The notes under the pieces: model-generated
The model's input: only the letters and a program-made list of their open reading frames with translations
Told to the model about the DNA's origin: nothing
Databases searched by the model: none
Origin: Candidatus Giovannonibacteria bacterium RIFCSPLOWO2_02_FULL_43_54
GTDB lineage: Bacteria; Patescibacteriota; Minisyncoccia; UBA11713; 2-01-FULL-45-33
Assembly (NCBI GenBank): GCA_001778875.1
Contig: MFIK01000045.1
Location: 1 to 36,636 of the forward strand
Direction of reading: 5' to 3'
Length of the DNA stretch: 36,636 nt
Program-made: the position numbers and the translations under genes
Shown: positions 408 through 10,660 of the stretch, in pieces
Layout: each line of letters starts with the position of its first letter
Numbering within the stretch: the first letter of the stretch is position 1

Positions 408-3293
408 ATGAAAAATCCAAGCGAGTCATTAGAATTAAAATTTATTTCCGAAATTAAAAAGAAAGCGAACACTATAACAGGTGGTGATCGTGAACGCTCT
501 GTCGAGGATTTCTTCGTTTCTTTTTTTGATGGAATTCCTGGATTTAAAGCATCTCGCGCGGACGCTCCTCGCCTCAAATTCCATAAGACACTTTATACAG
601 ACGGCATAGTTTCGTTTAATGACGAGATATTTACGGTTTTTGAATTTAAAAAAGGTGCTATTAAATTTACTGCCAGTAACGAACTCCTTTTTAATCAAGA
701 GGAAAATGTAGTTTATGCACAAGCGATAAAATACATTCTGTGTTCAAACTCAAATAAATTTGCATCTGAACTTAAATTTAATAAGGTATTACTATTTAAT
801 GGTTCACAAATAATTAAAATATCAATTGACGAGGACAATTTAAAAGAACTTTACCTGAAACTTCACTGGGACGATGCCTTGAGCAGTTTTTTGAATGACC
901 AGAGAAACCTATCTTCATTTTTGCAAAATATAATTTTAACTAAATTTAACACCATAAAACCACTTGTTGAATTTAGTTTCATTTTAGATACTGAAAAAAA
1001 TATCAATGAAAGTGAAATTTTAGAACTTTACAAAGAGCTTACTGCAGTATCTGATGCGAAGATAAGTATTATCAGAATGAACTTGAAGGCAAAGTTTTCT
1101 GAATTTTCCAAAGCATTTAATGAGCAACTAATCCAAACTGAGGCTACTAAATCTACATATTTATCAAATTTAGTTTTAAGAATATTTATTGAAATTTCTG
1201 TTCATATTAACGATGGCATAAATTGTGTTTTAAGCAGAGATAATAAAATTGCTGATTTTAAAGTCCGGGGACAGTCTTTTAGCATTTATTATACAGAGGA
1301 GGATGATCAGGGTGAAATGATTGATCGTCCCGTTACAATTTATGCTAACTATATCAAAGATATTGGCCAATTAAATGATTTTTTCAAGAATCACATTATT
1401 AACAACCTCGATGTTCTTTATGAAGATTATGACAATTTAATATCTGACGAGAGAACTAGAAAGTCAATCGGTTTATATTTCACAAAATCTGATTTATCTC
1501 ATCTTTGCTACGAATTTTTAACCAGAGTAATCCCCGTTGATATCTTAAAAACTTGTCATTTTTATGATCCGGCGGCTGGTTCGGGCAATTTATTAAAAGC
1601 GCAAGAAGATTTTATTAGCGTGATTGGCTCTGACGTTAAAAAAATGAGCCAAGACATTATGAGAAATCGACACATTAATGTACCGAAAAAAGAAATAGAT
1701 TTTTTTCAAACTACACGAGAGGATATGGTCAAAGAATTGAACTCGATTGTTGAAAAAAATGGTAGAAATTTTATTGATAATCCACTTTTGATAATAATGA
1801 ACCCTCCTTACAGAGGGAAAAATACGTGGGTTGAACAAGGTCAAATTGGAAATAAAATTGGAGTATCACGGGACCAAACATATCTTGGTGATGAGTTTAT
1901 TAAGATTTTGCATTCAAATAAAATAAGATCTAACGATTTATCTTCGTTTTTTATCCTTAAAGCTCTGACATTTTATTTGTTTGACAGTTACTATGGTTAC
2001 ATCGCAACATTTTCGCCAACAAACTGGCTAAACCCTGGGCGAGGTGAGCATGATGAATTTAGAAAATTTATTTCTAGCCACACTAAGTTTATCGGTGGAT
2101 TTATTATTAATGGAAAGAAATTTTTTGATAATTTGAATTCTAATTTAACAATAGCATTTTCAGTTTTTCAACTGGATAAAGATATTATTAAGGCGGAGAA
2201 TAAAAAAGATTATGTTTATTATGATTTATACAAAGAGCACAACAAAATTAAAGAACTTTTTGAGCTGAAGCAATACAAAAATTGGGAACCTAGTTATTTA
2301 GACAACGAAGACAAAAAACTGAAAATGAAGGCAGATTATATAAAGTTATCCGACCAAATTTTCAATGTAGCAAAAATCGTCAATTTTTCTAAAGATAGGG
2401 ATGAAAAAGTGTATTTCAAGGATATTTTCAGAGCAATCAATTCTCAAACTGGAGATGATCAGAAAGTTTTACTTCACATTGAAGATAAATTTAAAAATTT
2501 AGATTTAAATAAGGTCATCTCTAATACATTGATTAGTAACGATGAGGTTTATATCGTCGCTACTGATAAAGTAAATGGTTACGACATTGCAATTAAACCC
2601 AAGGAAAAGAAAAAACGGGGGTGCGTCTTCAGTATACCGAGATCAATTGATGGGCCAATTATGGCATGGCATTATCTGTGGGATTATTTAGCAACATATC
2701 CAACGAGATTTTATAATGCAGTACCGATAACCAGAAAATATGCTTTTACCTATATAGATTCAAAACCATTACTTACCATTGAAGATATTAAAAACTCTCG
2801 AACTTGTAAATTATTTAGTTTTATTCAGAAGAACGAGCTGGCGCTACAATATATTAAACAATGGCAAGAAAAAATCGGCGACCTGAGAGGTCTATTCTTT
2901 TTCTTTTTTGCTCTAACACATTCGGGGGTAGCAACAGATATGGCAAGAAATGTTTTGTATAAAAATAGCCCAATATGGTGTCCGGATTTAAAATCACAAA
3001 ATATAGATCACATTAAAACTACTATCCAATTGGGAACTGCGTATGCAATCTATAAATTTAGCGATAAATTTCAGGAATTTACCTTATCAAGAAATGGAGA
3101 AGATGTAATTAATACTGAAAATTATTTTAGCGTTAAATCTGCGTGGTTTAAAAAATCGAAGATATCAGAATTATTGCTCGATATTCAAAAGGAAACTATT
3201 CCCATCGCAAAGAGCATAATCTCTGGGGATATACCAGAAAAACAGATCCAAGAACTACTAGATAAATCTATAAATAAAATTGGTTCTTACTAA
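408..3293 (+). CDS. Type IIG-like restriction-modification enzyme (N6-adenine methylase with N-terminal nuclease)
   Basis: The protein has 961 residues. The N-terminus shows a PD-(D/E)XK-like nuclease signature, D65 then E79-F-K81, in a predicted beta-hairpin setting. The centre has a gamma-class adenine methylase: SAM-binding motif DPAAGSG at 387-393 and catalytic NPPY at 465-468. The C-terminal ~400 residues would hold the target-recognition domain. This single-chain nuclease/methylase/specificity order is that of Eco57I-like type IIG enzymes. It would methylate and cleave DNA at one recognition site, with no separate R or S gene needed and none visible. A BREX PglX-type methylase is the main alternative, but no other BREX genes are here. 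The gene is strongly AT-rich, a sign of transfer, and ends 7 nt before the right inverted repeat. Confidence 0.85.
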   Translation: MKNPSESLELKFISEIKKKANTITGGDRERSVEDFFVSFFDGIPGFKASRADAPRLKFHKTLYTDGIVSFNDEIFTVFEFKKGAIKFTASNELLFNQEENVVYAQAIKYILCSNSNKFASELKFNKVLLFNGSQIIKISIDEDNLKELYLKLHWDDALSSFLNDQRNLSSFLQNIILTKFNTIKPLVEFSFILDTEKNINESEILELYKELTAVSDAKISIIRMNLKAKFSEFSKAFNEQLIQTEATKSTYLSNLVLRIFIEISVHINDGINCVLSRDNKIADFKVRGQSFSIYYTEEDDQGEMIDRPVTIYANYIKDIGQLNDFFKNHIINNLDVLYEDYDNLISDERTRKSIGLYFTKSDLSHLCYEFLTRVIPVDILKTCHFYDPAAGSGNLLKAQEDFISVIGSDVKKMSQDIMRNRHINVPKKEIDFFQTTREDMVKELNSIVEKNGRNFIDNPLLIIMNPPYRGKNTWVEQGQIGNKIGVSRDQTYLGDEFIKILHSNKIRSNDLSSFFILKALTFYLFDSYYGYIATFSPTNWLNPGRGEHDEFRKFISSHTKFIGGFIINGKKFFDNLNSNLTIAFSVFQLDKDIIKAENKKDYVYYDLYKEHNKIKELFELKQYKNWEPSYLDNEDKKLKMKADYIKLSDQIFNVAKIVNFSKDRDEKVYFKDIFRAINSQTGDDQKVLLHIEDKFKNLDLNKVISNTLISNDEVYIVATDKVNGYDIAIKPKEKKKRGCVFSIPRSIDGPIMAWHYLWDYLATYPTRFYNAVPITRKYAFTYIDSKPLLTIEDIKNSRTCKLFSFIQKNELALQYIKQWQEKIGDLRGLFFFFFALTHSGVATDMARNVLYKNSPIWCPDLKSQNIDHIKTTIQLGTAYAIYKFSDKFQEFTLSRNGEDVINTENYFSVKSAWFKKSKISELLLDIQKETIPIAKSIISGDIPEKQIQELLDKSINKIGSY

Positions 3294-3300
3294 ACAAAGT

Positions 3301-3395
3301 GCCGCCAAAATTTCCGTCCGTCCCCGCAAGAACACGGCGGAAGGGGGGTGTGGGGGGAATTCCGCCGTGTTCTTGCAAAAAATAGAGGCCAAGCC
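3301..3395. repeat. Right 95-bp inverted repeat of the RM cassette
   Basis: Exact reverse complement of bases 1-95, including the 17-bp hairpin (3326-3376). It begins 7 bp after the RM stop codon. Perfect identity over 95 bp implies a recent duplication, gene conversion, or continuing recombination between the copies. An assembly artefact at an inverted repeat must also be considered. Confidence 0.95.
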
Positions 3396-5792: not shown

Positions 5793-5866
5793 TGCGCGCT
5801 GAGAGATTCGAACTCCCGACCTACCCGGTGTAAACGGGTCGCTCTAACCAACTGAGCTAAGCGCGC
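5793..5866 (-). tRNA. tRNA-Val (anticodon UAC)
   Basis: On the minus strand a full cloverleaf folds: 7-bp acceptor GCGCGCT/AGCGCGC, D-arm GCTC...GAGC, anticodon stem ACCCG/CGGGT with loop TTTACAC (anticodon TAC), and T-arm with GTTCGAATC. The discriminator is A. CCA is not encoded and must be added after transcription, unlike the neighbouring tRNA-Phe. It is convergent with apt, 11 bp from its stop. Confidence 0.95.
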
Positions 5867-5921
5867 GCTAAAAATATTCTAACAGAATTTGAAAAAAAAT
5901 AAAGAGTAATATATACTTCTT

Positions 5922-7457
5922 CTATCCGCCGTGGTAGCTCAGTGGTAGAGCAGACGCCTGAAGAGCGTCGTGTCGGGTGTTCGATTCACCCCCGCGGCAC
6001 CAGTTGGGAAAAGACAAGTCAGGGGAAGTCGCCTCCCCTCGCTCGGCGACCAAATCATACGGCGTTTTGGGCGAAAATTTGAACTGGCGGTTTTCTAAAA
6101 TATGGTTCGAGCCGATGTTTTTCAGAAATGTTGTCATTTCCGCTTTGTTTTCCGTTTCGATCAATTTTGCGGCTTGATGTAAGGATAAAATGAACTCACG
6201 AGCCGGTTCGAGCCAAGACAAACCCCTTTGCTCAATGTCAGCAATTTTTTCAGAAAGCGCGCCCTTTTGGAAAAGCAGACTTTGCTTTTTGGCGGCATAT
6301 TCTTCTGTGGATAAGGCATCAGCAAGGTAGACATCTAAAAGCTTTTGCAGTTTAGCCTCAATTGTTTCTAACTGCCTTTTTAACGTGCCGATCTCGGCTT
6401 GTGAATCTTGTCGCGCCTTGTCCTGTTCGCTATCCAATACCGCCAAAACTTTCTCTGTATCTTGGCTCGACAAAGAAACTTTTTGAAGAAAACTCTTGAT
6501 TTGATCGGTTAGCATCTCTTCTCTTAAAAAATGTTTTTCTTTGCATAGCCCTTTCTTTTTCGTGCAACGATAGTAAATAAATCCTTTTTGTGTTTCTGCG
6601 GTAATCGAAGCACCACACTTGCACTTCATTAAACCAAGAAAAGAAAAATTATGTTTTCTGATCTCTTTTTGCTTGCCTCGCTTACTCATCACTTCTTGGC
6701 ATGTATCAAAAAGTTTCTTTGAAGTTAACGGCTCGTGAGCTCCCTCAAAAATTTCCCCGCGATATTTCATGAGGCCAGTGTAGAAAATATTTTGTAAAAT
6801 TTTGTAGACCGTGTTAATGGACATCTCTTTATCAAGATTTCCTCTTAGATTATTTTCCTTGCACCAATTTGCGAGAGAATGAAGCGTATATGCTCCGGTG
6901 GCGTACATTTCGAACATTCCCCGAACCTTTAGGGCTTTATCGTGATCAATATCTATTCCACGAGTTTTCAGATTATTCGTGTAGCCAACCGGAGCCCAGC
7001 CGGGCCATACGCCATTCCGTATCTTTTGACGCAATCCTCTTTTCACATTCTCTCGCAAATTATCTACAAAATATTTCGATTGGCCGAACGCGATATTCAA
7101 CATAAACAAGCCTTGCGGTGTTGGTTCAAACCAGAACGTAGGAAATTTTAATGATTTAATCAAGCCGCGATCTACAAAGTAAATTATTTTTCCTCCGTCT
7201 ACCGAATTACGCGCGAGACGATCCGGATGCCATGAGATAATTCCATCTGCTTTCCCTTTCTCTAAAAATGACAACATTTCTGCGAATTTAATTCGCCCAG
7301 GTTCTTTGGCAGTTTTGGTCTCGACAAAAGTCGGACCGACAATTTCAAGTTTTTCTTTGGCGGCAAATTCCCTTAACTCAAAAATTTGGGCTTCAATGCT
7401 CAAAACCTGCCTATCTTCGTCCTCGGTGCTCTTTCGAGCGTATATCACATATCTCAT
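5922..7457 (-). CDS. Large serine recombinase whose C-terminal codons run through tRNA-Phe
   Basis: A 511-residue site-specific recombinase. The N-terminal resolvase domain has the YARKST motif with catalytic S10 and the downstream DRLARN motif. The central recombinase domain is followed by a zinc-ribbon of Cys pairs (MKCKCG...YYRC...C), a coiled coil at about 335-400, and a C-terminal tail. The last ~28 codons are antisense to tRNA-Phe, ending LPLSYHGG, so the frame is shaped by integration at the tRNA. The gene body is bracketed by 99-bp inverted repeats (5997-6095 and 7503-7601), the left one inside the reading frame. Both families of flanking fragments further right derive from this gene. 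It probably catalyses integration and excision at the tRNA 3' end. It could be only recently silent or still active: no disabling mutation is visible. Confidence 0.9.
   Translation of the reverse strand: MRYVIYARKSTEDEDRQVLSIEAQIFELREFAAKEKLEIVGPTFVETKTAKEPGRIKFAEMLSFLEKGKADGIISWHPDRLARNSVDGGKIIYFVDRGLIKSLKFPTFWFEPTPQGLFMLNIAFGQSKYFVDNLRENVKRGLRQKIRNGVWPGWAPVGYTNNLKTRGIDIDHDKALKVRGMFEMYATGAYTLHSLANWCKENNLRGNLDKEMSINTVYKILQNIFYTGLMKYRGEIFEGAHEPLTSKKLFDTCQEVMSKRGKQKEIRKHNFSFLGLMKCKCGASITAETQKGFIYYRCTKKKGLCKEKHFLREEMLTDQIKSFLQKVSLSSQDTEKVLAVLDSEQDKARQDSQAEIGTLKRQLETIEAKLQKLLDVYLADALSTEEYAAKKQSLLFQKGALSEKIADIEQRGLSWLEPAREFILSLHQAAKLIETENKAEMTTFLKNIGSNHILENRQFKFSPKTPYDLVAERGEATSPDLSFPNWCRGGESNTRHDALQASALPLSYHGG
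5928..6002 (+). tRNA. tRNA-Phe (anticodon GAA), integration site
   Basis: The cloverleaf has acceptor GCCGTGG/CCGCGGC (one T-G wobble), D-arm GCTCAGTGGTAGAGC, anticodon stem GACGC/GCGTC with loop CTGAAGA (anticodon GAA), T-arm with GTTCGATTC, discriminator A, and an encoded CCA. The 3' end GCACCA starts a 99-bp sequence repeated inverted at 7503-7601, and a degenerate match (GCACCAG then GGAAAAG) occurs at 10529-10546. This is what is expected of a recombinase attachment core at a tRNA 3' end. The whole gene lies antisense inside the recombinase frame. Confidence 0.95.
5997..6095. repeat. IR1-left, 99-bp inverted repeat flanking the recombinase
   Basis: Matches the reverse complement of 7503-7601 over 99 bp with one mismatch. 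It starts with the tRNA 3' end GCACCA and encodes, on the minus strand, the recombinase tail from about QFKFSPKTPYD to FPNWC. The two copies have equal length, so inverting the segment between them would keep the recombinase frame and exchange only the residues after WC. Confidence 0.95.
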
Positions 7458-7502
7458 GGTCTAAATTAGTTAATTAATAATGAAAAAATTTTCTTTTCCC
7501 CT

Positions 7503-7601
7503 GAAAACCGCCAGTTCAAATTTTCGGCCAAAACGCCGTATGATTTGGTCGCCGAGCGAGGGGAGGCGACTTCCCCTGACTTGTCTTTTCCCAACTGGTG
7601 C
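7503..7601. repeat. IR1-right, inverted copy of the recombinase 3' end
   Basis: Inverted copy of 5997-6095 lying 45 bp upstream of the recombinase start. On the plus strand it would encode the recombinase C-terminal segment again, with one codon change (Pro to Ala), then continue into the adjacent repeat IR2 as an open frame ending AATD. It overlaps IR2-left by 4 bp (GTGC). Confidence 0.95.
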
Positions 7602-7687
7602 GCTATTTTAAAGATAGTTCGAACGCATTTTGCGGCTTCGCCGCGAAATGATGGGGCAAAAAATTCGGCGGCGACAGATTGATTTTT
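7598..7687. repeat. IR2-left, 90-bp inverted repeat
   Basis: Matches the reverse complement of 8522-8611 over 90 bp with two mismatches (at 7673 and 7676). It contains an internal palindrome, GCGGCTTCGCCGC. Its inner edge directly abuts a recombinase-gene scrap at 7688. Confidence 0.95.
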
Positions 7688-7753
7688 AAAACTGCCAAAG
7701 AACCTGGAGAAAAACATCGGCTCGAACCATATTTTGGGGAAAAGAAAAATTTT
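7688..7753 (+). pseudogene. Recombinase gene scraps fused head to tail
   Basis: Bases 7688-7707 (AAAACTGCCAAAGAACCTGG) are identical to the recombinase coding strand where it encodes KTAKEPG near the N-terminus. Bases 7709-7735 are identical to the coding strand about 1.2 kb further on, where it encodes KNIGSNHI near the C-terminus. Nearly the whole gene between them is missing. Bases 7736-7753 (GGGGAAAAGAAAAATTTT) are in turn the near-complement of 7486-7502 upstream of the intact recombinase. This is a deletion remnant, not a coding gene. Confidence 0.85.
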
Positions 7754-8047
7754 ATGAATCAATTTTTTATTAGAAATAAATTTTATATTTTTGCAATTAT
7801 TTTTATTATAATAAGTTTCTTTGTGGCATTTTGGCTTCTGAGTTATATGACTGATCTTCCATCCAAAACTGCTCGAATTGTGCAACAAAAGGCAAACTTG
7901 AATCATTTTGGAAGTACTGTGCTTATCTTGCCTCTTTTTTCTCTTGCTACTGCATATTTTGGGTTTCGGGCAAAAGAATCGAAATTTTTAGCCATTACAA
8001 TTTTGTTATTGGTTGTGCTTTACTATAGTACGTTCATTTTCATTTAA
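7754..8047 (+). CDS. Small membrane protein, cassette 2
   Basis: A 97-residue protein with three hydrophobic segments: about residues 9-32, 52-70 and 77-97. The spacing suggests three membrane helices with a short loop containing LPSKTARIVQQKAN. I recognise no family. I chose the ATG at 7754 because the upstream part of the open frame is recombinase debris and repeat IR2. The stop codon directly abuts the ATG of the next gene at 8048, so the two are probably translated together. Both lie between the 90-bp inverted repeats IR2, as a two-gene cargo. AT content is high, in line with recent acquisition. Confidence 0.6.
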   Translation: MNQFFIRNKFYIFAIIFIIISFFVAFWLLSYMTDLPSKTARIVQQKANLNHFGSTVLILPLFSLATAYFGFRAKESKFLAITILLLVVLYYSTFIFI

Positions 8048-8431
8048 ATGAAAAAGGTGTATAAAATTTTGATTTTATTTGGAATTCTTCTTGTGGTTTT
8101 TGTGATAGGAACAGTTTTTCTGAAATCACTAGATAATGAAAGGTCAAAAAATCATGACATCCGCAGAGAAGAGGCCGTTAAAAATATCAGTTCGGCTCTA
8201 CAGGATTATGCCAATAAACACAACGGAATGTACCCAGCCGATTTATCAGAACTGCAAAAATTTTTCCCAGATCGCTACTTACCGACATATTTTGGAGAAA
8301 TCTATTATAGGTATAAAAGAATTGACAACAATCATTATTGTTTATATTCCAACCTTGAAACCAGGAAAGATGTTTTCTTTGCCAGTGAGAAGGAAAGTGG
8401 CTTTGGATCAACAGATTGTTCACCGAATTGA
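8048..8431 (+). CDS. Membrane-anchored GspG/pilin-like protein
   Basis: A 127-residue protein with an N-terminal membrane helix (about 6-26) and an exported domain. The segment AVKNISSALQDYANKHNGMYPADLSEL (split here: AVKNISSALQDYAN, then KHNGMYPADLSEL) resembles the conserved helix and YP loop of type II secretion pseudopilin GspG and type IV pilin-like proteins. A clear prepilin peptidase site (G/A then F at position +1, E at +5) is lacking, so it may be anchored and not assembled. Two cysteines in the C-terminal part (YCLYS and TDCSPN) could form a disulfide. It starts immediately after the stop of 7754-8047. Its role in the cassette is unknown. Confidence 0.6.
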   Translation: MKKVYKILILFGILLVVFVIGTVFLKSLDNERSKNHDIRREEAVKNISSALQDYANKHNGMYPADLSELQKFFPDRYLPTYFGEIYYRYKRIDNNHYCLYSNLETRKDVFFASEKESGFGSTDCSPN

Positions 8432-8492
8432 TGAAAGCAAATTTTATTGCGTTTTCTTTTTCTCCTCATCCTCAGATCTTATCGAATAAGAC

Positions 8493-8521
8493 TTGCCGCC
8501 AAAGAAAAACTTGAAATTGTC
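8493..8521 (+). pseudogene. Recombinase N-terminal scrap
   Basis: Twenty-nine bases identical to the recombinase coding strand where it encodes FAAKEKLEIV. In the intact gene this lies just 21 nt before the KTAKEPG scrap found at 7688, at the other inner edge of IR2. The scrap directly abuts IR2-right, so both inner edges of the cassette come from the same small part of the recombinase gene. Confidence 0.85.
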
Positions 8522-8611
8522 AAAAATCAATCCGTAGCCGCCGAATTTTTTGCCCCATCATTTCGCGGCGAAGCCGCAAAATGCGTTCGAACTATCTTTA
8601 AAATAGCGCAC
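8522..8611. repeat. IR2-right, 90-bp inverted repeat
   Basis: Inverted partner of 7598-7687 (two mismatches). Its outer edge runs into a string of short palindromes starting at 8610. Confidence 0.95.
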
Positions 8612-8666: not shown

Positions 8667-8945
8667 ATGAATACGTATTACGTTTATATCTTGTTAAGTT
8701 CGATGGACGGCAAGTTATATATTGGCTCAACTCCAGATTTAAAGAAACGTCTTGAAAAACATAATCGTGGCTATGTTTTGGCCACAAAGCATCGCCGACC
8801 AGTTAAACTTATATATTACGAGTCATATTTGCATCCTCGCGACGCTAAGCGTCGCGAGGTATTTCTGAAAGGCGGCAAAGGACATGAACAGCTTAAGGTG
8901 CAGTTGCAAGATAGTTTCAGAGTGATAAAATACAGATATAATTAA
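8667..8945 (+). CDS. GIY-YIG nuclease domain protein
   Basis: A 92-residue single-domain protein of the small GIY-YIG (YhbQ/UvrC-N-like) family. The motif appears as YYVYILL then KLYIGST, followed by LKKRLEKHNRGY with the conserved Arg, and the late motif DAKRREVFLKGG. The family hydrolyses DNA phosphodiester bonds, and stand-alone members are linked to repair or mobile DNA. The length is normal. A 25-bp perfect palindrome (8835-8859) lies within the codons for HPRDAKRREV and is tolerated because it encodes the family's usual charged segment. No SD is seen. It sits among palindromes in the tRNA-Phe island and may act on hairpin DNA, which is inference. Confidence 0.85.
   Translation: MNTYYVYILLSSMDGKLYIGSTPDLKKRLEKHNRGYVLATKHRRPVKLIYYESYLHPRDAKRREVFLKGGKGHEQLKVQLQDSFRVIKYRYN
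8835..8859. repeat. 25-bp palindrome inside the GIY-YIG gene
   Basis: CCTCGCGACGCT-A-AGCGTCGCGAGG: two perfect 12-bp arms around one base, with the same ACGCTnAGCGT core as the intergenic palindromes on both sides of the gene. Confidence 0.95.
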
Positions 8946-8990: not shown

Positions 8991-9033
8991 ACTCGCCTAC
9001 CAGCCCCCGCCTACCGGCAGGCAGGTCTGGATG

Positions 9034-9070
9034 GAACCATATTTTAATTTTGGGGGAAGAAATTTTTTTA
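9034..9070 (+). other. Degenerate copy of the 7724-7753 recombinase junction
   Basis: GAACCATATTTT (9034-9045) followed by a GGGGAA-AGAAA-TTTT pattern repeats the order seen at 7724-7753, with small insertions. Together with the scrap at 9608-9635 it brackets the SET gene the way recombinase scraps bracket cassette 2. It favours the SET start codon at 9100 over upstream ATGs. Confidence 0.5.
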
Positions 9071-9099
9071 ATCCTTTCCCTGATGGATTTTCTAAAATT

Positions 9100-9606
9100 A
9101 TGCTCATTAAAGACCATGGTCGCATCTTTGACCTCAAAGTTCCAAAAACTATAAAATTTGTTTATGTTTGTGGTAAAGGCCTTTCGCTCTTTGCGAATAA
9201 AAGATTCAAGGAAGGCGACAAAATAATTTACTTGAAGGGAAAGCTGATAGACATAAACAAAGTAAATCCTTCGCCCGAAACCATACAGATAAGTGACAAC
9301 AAGTTTCTTGATAGCAGAGATTATGTTCCAGAAGATTTTATCAGTCATAGCTGTGTGCCCAATGCCAAATTTGATCTGGTTAAACGGCAGGTTATCGCCA
9401 TTAAAAATATTTCCAAAAACGAAGAAATAACTTTCAACTATCTTACCACAGAGTGGGATATGAAAAAATGGGGTACTGATTTTAAATGTATTTGCGGTTC
9501 GAAAAATTGTTTTGGTCATATTAATGGTTTTAAATATTTATCTCGCGCAGAGAAGCTAAAATTGAAACCGCTTTTATCTCCTTTGCTTTTAAAGAAAATT
9601 TCATAA
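9100..9606 (+). CDS. SET-domain protein-lysine methyltransferase-like protein
   Basis: A 168-residue protein consisting of a SET domain. GKGLSLFANKRFKEGDKI matches the N-terminal SET strands. Then come ISHSCVPNAKF (the NHSCxPN-type motif with S for N), NEEITFNYL (the catalytic-Tyr GEELTxDY motif) and a post-SET zinc cluster FKCICGSKNCFGHINGF. SET proteins transfer methyl groups from SAM to lysine side chains; bacterial ones modify ribosomal, chromatin-like or host proteins. The start is uncertain: upstream in-frame ATGs at 8986 and 9031 fall in repeat DNA. It lies between recombinase scraps, which suggests it arrived as cargo, and it has no obvious partner gene. Confidence 0.8.
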   Translation: MLIKDHGRIFDLKVPKTIKFVYVCGKGLSLFANKRFKEGDKIIYLKGKLIDINKVNPSPETIQISDNKFLDSRDYVPEDFISHSCVPNAKFDLVKRQVIAIKNISKNEEITFNYLTTEWDMKKWGTDFKCICGSKNCFGHINGFKYLSRAEKLKLKPLLSPLLLKKIS

Positions 9607-9607
9607 T

Positions 9608-9635
9608 GAATTTGCCGCCAAAGAAAAACTTGAAA
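9608..9635 (+). pseudogene. Recombinase N-terminal scrap, second copy
   Basis: Twenty-eight bases identical to the recombinase coding strand encoding EFAAKEKLE, overlapping the same region as the scrap at 8493-8521. It starts 2 bp after the SET stop codon. The repeated retention of exactly this segment after each cargo gene points to a recombination boundary. Confidence 0.85.
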
Positions 9636-9715
9636 CCCGCCTGCATCAGCTATGCTGAAAGCATTGCGGGCAGGTTGTTATCAGCGTGGCGGAGCCGCGG
9701 GATATTCACAATGCA

Positions 9716-9744
9716 TTGATTTCTTATCCGACTAGTGCTAATGT
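9716..9744 (+). promoter_or_regulatory. Promoter of the candidate small RNA
   Basis: -35 TTGATT (9716-9721), 17-bp spacer, -10 TAATGT (9739-9744) with a TG extension (TGC at 9736-9738). The predicted start is at about 9751, exactly the first base of the outer stem of the structured element. Confidence 0.55.
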
Positions 9745-9750
9745 AAAAAG

Positions 9751-9840
9751 GTGCTTGTGGGCGCAAGCCCCGTTCAGCTAAGGATTTCCTAAGCTGAAGG
9801 CAAGCACGACAAAGATACTGCATTTATATGCGGTGTTTTT
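9751..9840 (+). ncRNA. Candidate ~90-nt structured small RNA with three-way junction
   Basis: An outer stem GTGCTTG/CAAGCAC (9751-9757 with 9801-9807) encloses two hairpins. One is GGGC-GCAA-GCCC (9759-9770), a GNRA tetraloop. The other is TTCAGCT/AGCTGAA (73-79 with 92-98 of the 9700s) extended by AGG/CCT across an A-A mismatch. Only a few unpaired bases separate the helices, so this is a compact three-way junction. An intrinsic terminator hairpin follows (ACTGCAT/ATGCGGT, 9817-9834) with five Ts. A promoter is positioned so that transcription begins at the outer stem. I match it to no known RNA class. No open frame is present. It is convergent with 9843-10301, whose stop lies 3 bp beyond. 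Confidence 0.6.
9817..9840 (+). terminator. Intrinsic terminator of the candidate small RNA
   Basis: 7-bp stem (one T-G wobble) with loop TTAT, followed by GTTTTTG. There is no T-run on the other strand, so it serves the plus strand. Confidence 0.7.
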
Positions 9841-9842
9841 GT

Positions 9843-10301
9843 TTATCCGTCTTCTATTCCGCTGTCGTAGAGTGTCTGCCCTCCCCTTAGTTTGGAATCC
9901 GGCATCACGCTCCAAAAAGTAACGTTGCCGTCGCCAACTCGTCTCAAGATCGTCCGGATCTTTATTTTGTTTTCACCGACAATAGCAACAAACCCCCAGT
10001 ATTCAGCTTCTTTGGTTCGTGATAAACCATCTTTTCCTTTCTTGCCTACAGCTACGAACTCTTTTCTATGCTCCTGCAAAGTTCCGGAGTTCTTGATAAC
10101 CGTGATTGCCAAAGGCAGGAGACTAAATTTCAGAAGTTGCTCCTGCTTATCTCTTTCCCGCCTTGCCGAAAACTGCAGATGGTGAAAACCATCGGAATTG
10201 AAAACGACTTCGCTTTTCAAATACGGATTATGTATTTTTTGCTGAGCATCGTATATCGCCCTAGCCTTAACTTTTCTTTCATTGAAATAATCTGGATCCA
10301 T
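9843..10301 (-). CDS. Hypothetical small protein, possibly a nuclease-like domain
   Basis: A 152-residue cytoplasmic protein with no signal or membrane segment. Notable pieces are GFHHLQFSARRERD, LPLAITVIKNSGTLQE, YWGFVAIVGENKIKIRTILRR and GDGNVTFWSVMP. The mix of a His-containing strand, conserved Arg residues and a final FWS motif is reminiscent of small RNase-like toxin or PBECR-type domains. I cannot assign it. The start is supported by a -10 box TATGAT (10311-10316, minus strand) with TTGCGC 16 bp upstream and the absence of an SD. Immediately upstream in this frame is a stop codon, so a frameshifted extension into the frame at 10302-10660 cannot be excluded. It is convergent with the candidate small RNA. 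Confidence 0.5.
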   Translation of the reverse strand: MDPDYFNERKVKARAIYDAQQKIHNPYLKSEVVFNSDGFHHLQFSARRERDKQEQLLKFSLLPLAITVIKNSGTLQEHRKEFVAVGKKGKDGLSRTKEAEYWGFVAIVGENKIKIRTILRRVGDGNVTFWSVMPDSKLRGGQTLYDSGIEDG

Positions 10302-10660
10302 ATCGGTTTAATCATATTCTTTTTCGCATTTTGCGCAAATTTTATCCTAAGCTTATTACCAACGGCAAGTAACCCTTTCTTGTGAGGGGTTCTTACTTTG
10401 CTATGATTGCCACACAAGAAATTTACGCAGCTAACCCATCCGTGGTCTCTGCGGGCGGATTTGTTTTGAAATACTTTACGAGCTTTCGAAGCAATCTGTC
10501 CCAAGTTCGAGGTATGTCCTGATGCGGGGCACCAGAAAGGAAAAGTCAAATAGTTTTGGTTCGCCTCGCGGAGTTTATCCGCCATTTCGGCGGACTCGGC
10601 GACTAATTGGTATTCAATTTTCGGGACAAATCTGTTGATAAAGCGTCCGCTAAGAGCATA
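10217..10660 (-). pseudogene. Decayed serine-recombinase tail and att-like remnant
   Basis: An open minus-strand frame upstream of 9843-10301. Its first part reads FVPKIEYQLVAES, then YLTFPFWC. This parallels the intact recombinase tail FSPKTPYDLVAER then DLSFPNWC. At the corresponding DNA position, GCACCAGAAAGGAAAAGTCAA (10529-10549) resembles the tRNA-Phe junction GCACCAGTTGGGAAAAGACAA (5997-6017). The sequence just left of it (10505-10534) has a GTTCGAGG and GGGGCACCA arrangement like a tRNA 3' half, but no cloverleaf forms. The rest of the frame has a Cys/His-containing segment of unknown origin. Best read as the far boundary of an older integration. No start codon with an initiation signal is seen. 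This covers most of the gene-poor stretch 10302-10716. Confidence 0.5.

Follow-up and report, generated by a model that had tools for sequence, protein, structure and literature searches.

The inverted repeats around the serine recombinase gene described here are best read, with a probability we put at about 0.8, as parts of a self-splitting mobile element. On this reading, which is drawn from sequence comparison, a serine recombinase and a small cargo would have inserted at the 3' end of a tRNA-Phe gene, with the attachment site attP lying inside the recombinase gene and the gene being broken by integration. The window, that is the whole stretch of 36,636 nucleotides that was analysed, is a contig in a 740-kb genome, and its close relatives are MAGs of CPR bacteria (Patescibacteria). 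The family of such elements seems to be widespread, varied in the genes it carries and apparently undescribed; we found no description of the element in the open-access literature.

Layout of the element

Read in the orientation of the recombinase, the plan is left flank, B~, cargo, B, A~, recombinase, A and finally tRNA antisense (3' end), with junctions at flank:B~, B:A~ and A:tRNA. The repeat IR1 is the pair A/A~ and IR2 is the pair B/B~. The preliminary description had placed the recombinase between inverted repeats of equal length, 99 bp, and had them hold recombinase 3' codons together with the tRNA 3' end. Both points proved correct. The IR1 arms (5997-6095 and 7503-7601) are 99 nt each with 1 mismatch, 99% complementary and 1407 nt apart, and the tRNA end appears as GCACCA at 5997-6002 on the left and as TGGTGC at 7596-7601 on the right. 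The IR2 arms (7598-7698 and 8511-8611) are 101 nt long and 93% identical. The features are as follows.

5928-6002, plus strand: tRNA-Phe(GAA) (ARAGORN, Rfam), the putative target and attB half R; T-arm TTCGA at 5980-5984, 3' end GCACCA at 5997-6002, T-arm motif 12 nt from the core
About 5997-8611: the whole integrated element, 2.6 kb, at the tRNA-Phe 3' end
5925-7457, minus strand (ORF 5922-7457): large serine recombinase of 511 aa, with residues 1-487 encoded by the element and the final 24 by tRNA antisense
5997-6095, minus strand: A arm (IR1 left), recombinase codons ~454-487 and core TGGTGC; the element's right end, with attR as A:tRNA
6097-6123, minus strand: segment a, which covers recombinase codons ~446-454 and recurs inverted at 7709-7735
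7297-7316, minus strand: segment b, which covers recombinase codons ~48-54 and recurs inverted at 7688-7707
7338-7366, minus strand: segment c, which covers recombinase codons ~31-40 and recurs inverted at 8493-8521
7487-7501, minus strand: recombinase leader, by sequence an inverted pair with 7736-7751
7503-7601, plus strand: A~ (IR1 right), which repeats A in inverted form and has the core TGGTGC at its end (7596-7601)
7598-7698, plus strand: B arm at the centre (IR2 left); TTCGAAC at 7618-7624, TCGAA 17 nt from the core
7602-7682, plus strand: native C-terminal codons and stop of the recombinase, present here for a second time (AILKIVRTHFAASPRNDGAKNSAATD, then stop)
7688-7735, plus strand: copies of b and a, between B and the cargo leader
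7736-7751, plus strand: cargo leader, ahead of the cargo ATG (7754)
7754-8047, plus strand: cargo ORF 1, 97 aa, without family match
8048-8431, plus strand: cargo ORF 2, 127 aa, without family match
8493-8521, plus strand: copy of c at the outer end
8511-8611, minus strand: outer B~ arm (IR2 right), the element's left end; core GCAC at 8608-8611, flank from 8612
8527-8607, minus strand: severed native recombinase C-terminal codons (8530-8607) and stop (8527-8529), rejoined to A in the predicted circle

At the centre, B and A~ together make up an intact attP-like site, to judge by its sequence. The Rfam matches were two tRNAs and nothing else.

The recombinase and its divided C-terminus

The 511-aa ORF is a serine recombinase with matches to PF00239, PF07508 and PF13408. 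It has the plan of the large serine recombinases: a resolvase N-domain with the invariant S10, a recombinase domain, a zinc ribbon and a coiled coil, the last seen as long helices at 331-411 in the AlphaFold model. P0001 has less than 30% identity to the best phage and plasmid proteins among the matches listed. On the minus strand the integrated ORF ends in RGGESNTRHDALQASALPLSYHGG, a tail read from tRNA antisense. A join of A to B~ keeps the frame open through WCAILKIVRTHFAASPRNDGAKNSAATD up to a stop, which would give a full-length enzyme of 513 aa. The same join of A to the outer B~ yields a conserved tail, W[CWLR]xIL[EK]x[VA]RTHF..., and most of the distant families have tails like xLxxIRT[HF]F. 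The stop of the joined frame overlaps the arm boundary in 26 of 34 elements, and in 32 of the 34 it lies no more than 8 nt from the boundary or from segment c~. In the nine-codon core of the native tail pN/pS is 0.29 in frame, whereas the two other frames give 0.72 and 1.16; the codon-position entropy is 0.48/0.18/0.87. These values are to be read knowing that the conservation of the B arm is partly DNA recognition and can inflate the coding-like signal of the tail.

Since the joined frame is open and conserved, the native end of the recombinase would be the one encoded by the element, and the tRNA-antisense end would be a consequence of integration. Likewise, because joining the outer end restores the native C-terminus, attP can be placed inside the integrase gene, and integration would swap the last ~26 residues for tRNA antisense. 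It had been proposed earlier that inverting the segment between the IR1 arms would keep the frame open and replace the tRNA-antisense tail by one read from IR2 and starting AILKIVRTHF. The joined sequence bears this out, and the tails would indeed change on inversion. What has to be revised is the nature of the two tails: the one from IR2 is the native C-terminus and the tRNA-antisense one a by-product of insertion.

No intact, rejoined recombinase gene was found at the readable loci or in the 383 genomes searched with the joined C-terminus, where no match joins a recombinase 3' end to the native tail. The matches were of two kinds: recombinase 3' ends in which the match breaks off close to the core, and copies at the centre, which lie on the opposite strand. 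Four candidates for intact genes (G173, G234, G203 and G300) were rejected, as all are broken copies. Inversion as a routine event is therefore unsupported. Inversion at A/A~, or at the short c repeats (which one locus, L067, fits), may still take place as a rare process.

The AlphaFold model (26 sequences; mean pLDDT 70, pTM 0.38) is folded to residue ~461 and disordered over 464-511, so that the residues exchanged probably form a peptide carried by a linker which A encodes. Given that only ~26 residues are lost, probably a flexible tail, the integrated enzyme, short of its native tail, may still be active.

Targets, repeat arms and cargo in CPR relatives

Dozens of relatives from CPR bacteria, some with as little as about 40% protein identity, have the plan seen in the window. 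At 64 close-group loci, the window included, the 3' region of the recombinase recurs in inverted form upstream of the gene, and B/B~ is present in most close-group loci with enough flank. In the families at 40-50% identity the A arms are about 70-148 nt and the B arms up to 273 nt long, mostly 97-100% identical. The elements look common in CPR genomes; a recombinase homologue, as judged by homology only, occurs in 129 of 188 related genomes.

The element sits at the tRNA 3' end and leaves the tRNA gene intact. A tRNA was recognised where the recombinase gene ends (the A end) at 47 of the 61 loci with both junctions readable, with 13 tRNA types represented, and at the centre junction in none of the 61. 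The absence of a tRNA from the centre speaks against routine inversion and rules out two equivalent attP sites used at random. The core TGGNNN is the antisense of the tRNA 3' end and occurs as TGGTGC, TGGTGG, TGGCTC, TGGCGG, TGGCAG and TGGCTG, the centre mostly having the same variable bases, with exceptions such as L068. A TCGAA-like motif lies 12 nt from the core in the tRNA T-arm (44/58) and 17 nt from it in B at the centre (47/58), that is, the zinc-domain motif is shifted outward by 5 bp in attP, a statement that covers the B/tRNA half only. In serine integrases the zinc-domain motif is shifted by 5 bp between attP and attB (PMC3783163). With this shift the junction of A and B would correspond to attP and the 3' end of the tRNA to attB, and the wide range of tRNA targets can be traced to recognition of the T-arm motif.

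We found no clean empty site in relatives, and the tRNA-Phe neighbourhood of the same genus is rearranged. The tRNA-Val and tRNA-Phe genes are divergent in the window (5793-6002); in a same-genus genome (G002:C33:27401-27553) they are convergent and 10 nt apart. At L048 (6822-6990 and 9473-9641) and L052 (6992-7063 and 9530-9601) the right target recurs as a direct repeat adjoining the left end, which looks as though tandem copies of the target enclosed the element. At L051, L066 and L078 the recombinase 3' end is followed by a different B-like sequence (GCTCGAACCTATTTTC) and not by a tRNA; these are perhaps tandem elements.

Dozens of independent assemblies have both repeat pairs at matching positions, far more than chance would give. 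The median identity of the arms is about 99% within an element as compared with 65% (A) and 62% (B) between elements, and the copy in the same element is the best match for 48 of 53 A arms and 34 of 39 B arms. As the arms are alike within an element and divergent between elements, something keeps the copies alike. RNA pairing as the cause was rejected because the mismatches show no strand (G-U) bias (31 vs 29; 26 vs 25), and their types argue for upkeep at the level of DNA.

Between the centre and the outer end lie one to a few cargo genes, different in each element and bounded by the B arms; independent cassette arrays of cargo were not seen. Elements of the P0001 subclade repeat three short pieces of the recombinase gene (a, b and c, 20-29 nt) in inverted form next to the B arms, and the recombinase leader is repeated ahead of the cargo. 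Some variants of these short repeats co-vary in both copies, and the codons of a and c have low synonymous variation, as do other stretches. Two loci are rearranged at c. One, L067 (1100-3320), is compact, has a single arm and lacks the recombinase N-terminus, a form that could have arisen by inversion at c and then a deletion at the core; the other, L100 (5730-9360), also lacks that N-terminus, a second gene seemingly occupying its slot, and seems to carry two cargo genes. At L060, L061, L065, L071, L101 and L103 the contigs start close to recombinase segment c, with a short palindrome at several of the breaks. Inversion at c as an active switch in the population was considered and set aside, the breaks examined being at short palindromes 10-31 nt from c and only suggestive.

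Proposed mechanism, alternatives and known systems

The layout, the core, the 5-bp shift, the conserved native tail, the broken gene in every readable copy and the varied cargo are read directly from sequence; the circle, the integration step, the locking and the role of the centre are inferred. We propose that attP is A-TGGTGC-B, within the recombinase gene and 26 codons ahead of its stop. Circularisation would join the right end A to the left end B~ and so give the full-length 513-aa enzyme with its conserved tail. This enzyme would find tRNA genes by their 3' end and the near-universal T-arm TTCGAA, and recombine attP with the tRNA. Integration would split the recombinase gene, leaving the last 26 codons at the far end and running the gene into tRNA antisense, so that the integrated copy would no longer make the native enzyme. 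Loss of the native enzyme should keep the element locked in place with no need of a separate directionality factor, in the manner of archaeal suicidal integrases. The tail switch is what would be expected from integration or excision at a core within the gene. The second complete attP and C-terminus (B:A~), inverted between the divergent cargo and recombinase genes, is most likely a spare of the severed end, an operator or both, and may also be something else. Only gene-breaking orientations were seen; isomers in which a complete enzyme and a complete attP sit together, with many tRNA targets in the genome around them, may be lost. A more far-reaching proposal, which we hold only tentatively, is that of a self-disabling serine integrase with an inverted spare of its severed end, whose native enzyme inversion can restore, which has no separate directionality factor and which occurs throughout a large, undescribed family of gene-carrying CPR elements.

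Two things are left unexplained by the element model: the upkeep of a second attP, and the near-identity of arms whose length far exceeds a ~50-bp site. One addition to the model, rather than its opposite, is that inversion between A and A~ rejoins the gene to the central spare C-terminus and makes the integrated copy mobile again. Such an inversion would restore the native tail in frame, distant families also have a stop inside the centre arm, the arms are long (about 90-150 nt) at ~99% identity, and L067 has the form that inversion at c and deletion at the core would leave. However, no rejoined gene was seen in the 61 loci or the 383 genomes, and across much of the P0001 subclade no stop stands at the arm boundary of the copy at the centre, which makes this addition possible but doubtful. 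The centre could also be an operator, the recombinase binding the central attP copy and repressing the divergent cargo and recombinase genes. The site does lie between divergent genes with paired leaders and is a complete attP-like site with correct spacing, but about 50 bp would do for this purpose, as against 200-400 bp of near-identical arms, and promoter-like matches are at chance level. We would therefore offer the operator as a conjecture to be kept in mind and somewhat against the odds.

A single-stranded stage, for example in DNA uptake, is unlikely. The geometry would fit, as A~/A and B~/B could fold into a double-stranded attP with the flanks exiting at the core, including the order of the a, b and c copies and the leader, and the lack of G-U bias is as expected of DNA pairing and not RNA pairing. 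However, serine recombinases cut both strands, which makes direct use of the fold problematic, and the element sequences give no sign of such a stage. An ordinary phase-variable inverton, with the 1.4-kb segment regularly flipped by the enzyme, would account for a serine recombinase enclosed by inverted repeats and for some contigs breaking near c. This is very improbable given the single orientation across readable loci, the domains of a large integrase and not a small invertase, and repeats that are att half-sites and coding sequence. We give hardly any credence to the inverted copies being passive scars of nested insertions or assembly artefacts. A decayed second element does adjoin this one, and the arms of L048, L050 and L068 appear to have been exchanged between lineages, but the identical plan and near-identical arms are found in many independent assemblies and families, and this recurrence refutes an assembly artefact.

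The self-splitting element can be compared with several known systems. In the archaeal suicidal (SSV-type) tyrosine integrases (SSV, pTN3, pT26-2) attP lies in the integrase gene, insertion is into tRNA genes and integration breaks the gene; the intact gene is treated as filling the role of a directionality factor, and such self-disruption has been called exclusively archaeal (PMC8371274). The CPR element appears to share with them an attP inside the integrase gene, a tRNA target and a gene split on integration. It differs in that the enzyme is a serine and not a tyrosine recombinase (serine domains only), the host is bacterial, the C-terminal tail alone is lost and an inverted second attP lies inside. 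It is a functional parallel of the archaeal systems and not a member of them, and would place suicidal-integrase logic in bacteria with an unrelated enzyme class.

The yeast 2-micron plasmid, a replicating plasmid with a tyrosine enzyme (FLP), has two inverted recombination sites that split its circle into two segments. The predicted CPR circle would likewise have two inverted sites, but no replication function was seen in the CPR element. Integrons hold exchangeable single-gene cassettes and use a tyrosine integrase with folded attC sites; the CPR element also brings exchangeable genes along with a recombinase, its cargo being bounded by the B arms. In mycobacteriophage BPs, integration reportedly changes how a phage gene overlapping attP ends. 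The integration-dependent immunity of BPs (PMC4557955) is a near system in which the affected gene is the repressor, whereas here it is the recombinase itself. With the large serine phage integrases (A118/LI and others; PMC3783163) the CPR element shares the domain plan and the 5-bp motif shift, and it differs in its many tRNA targets reached via the T-arm, its attP within the integrase gene and its internal second attP. Enzymes that recognise the conserved tRNA T-arm and 3' end could serve as integration tools, and as many different genes are carried, the elements may be a route of gene exchange within CPR.

Other features were seen in the window. A perfect 95-nt inverted repeat (1-95 and 3301-3395), by eye not of the A/B type, encloses a small HTH-XRE-like ORF (191-403) and a 961-aa ORF (408-3293) without a Pfam or NCBIfam match. 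Directly outside the left end is a GIY-YIG ORF (8667-8945) with GACGCTAAGCGTC-like palindromes on its flanks. The decayed second element, which is of the same kind, spans 9031-10640 and consists of a sequence resembling a and the leader (9031-9075), a SET-domain ORF (9082-9606), a copy of c (9608-9635) and a remnant of an A arm (about 10525-10640).
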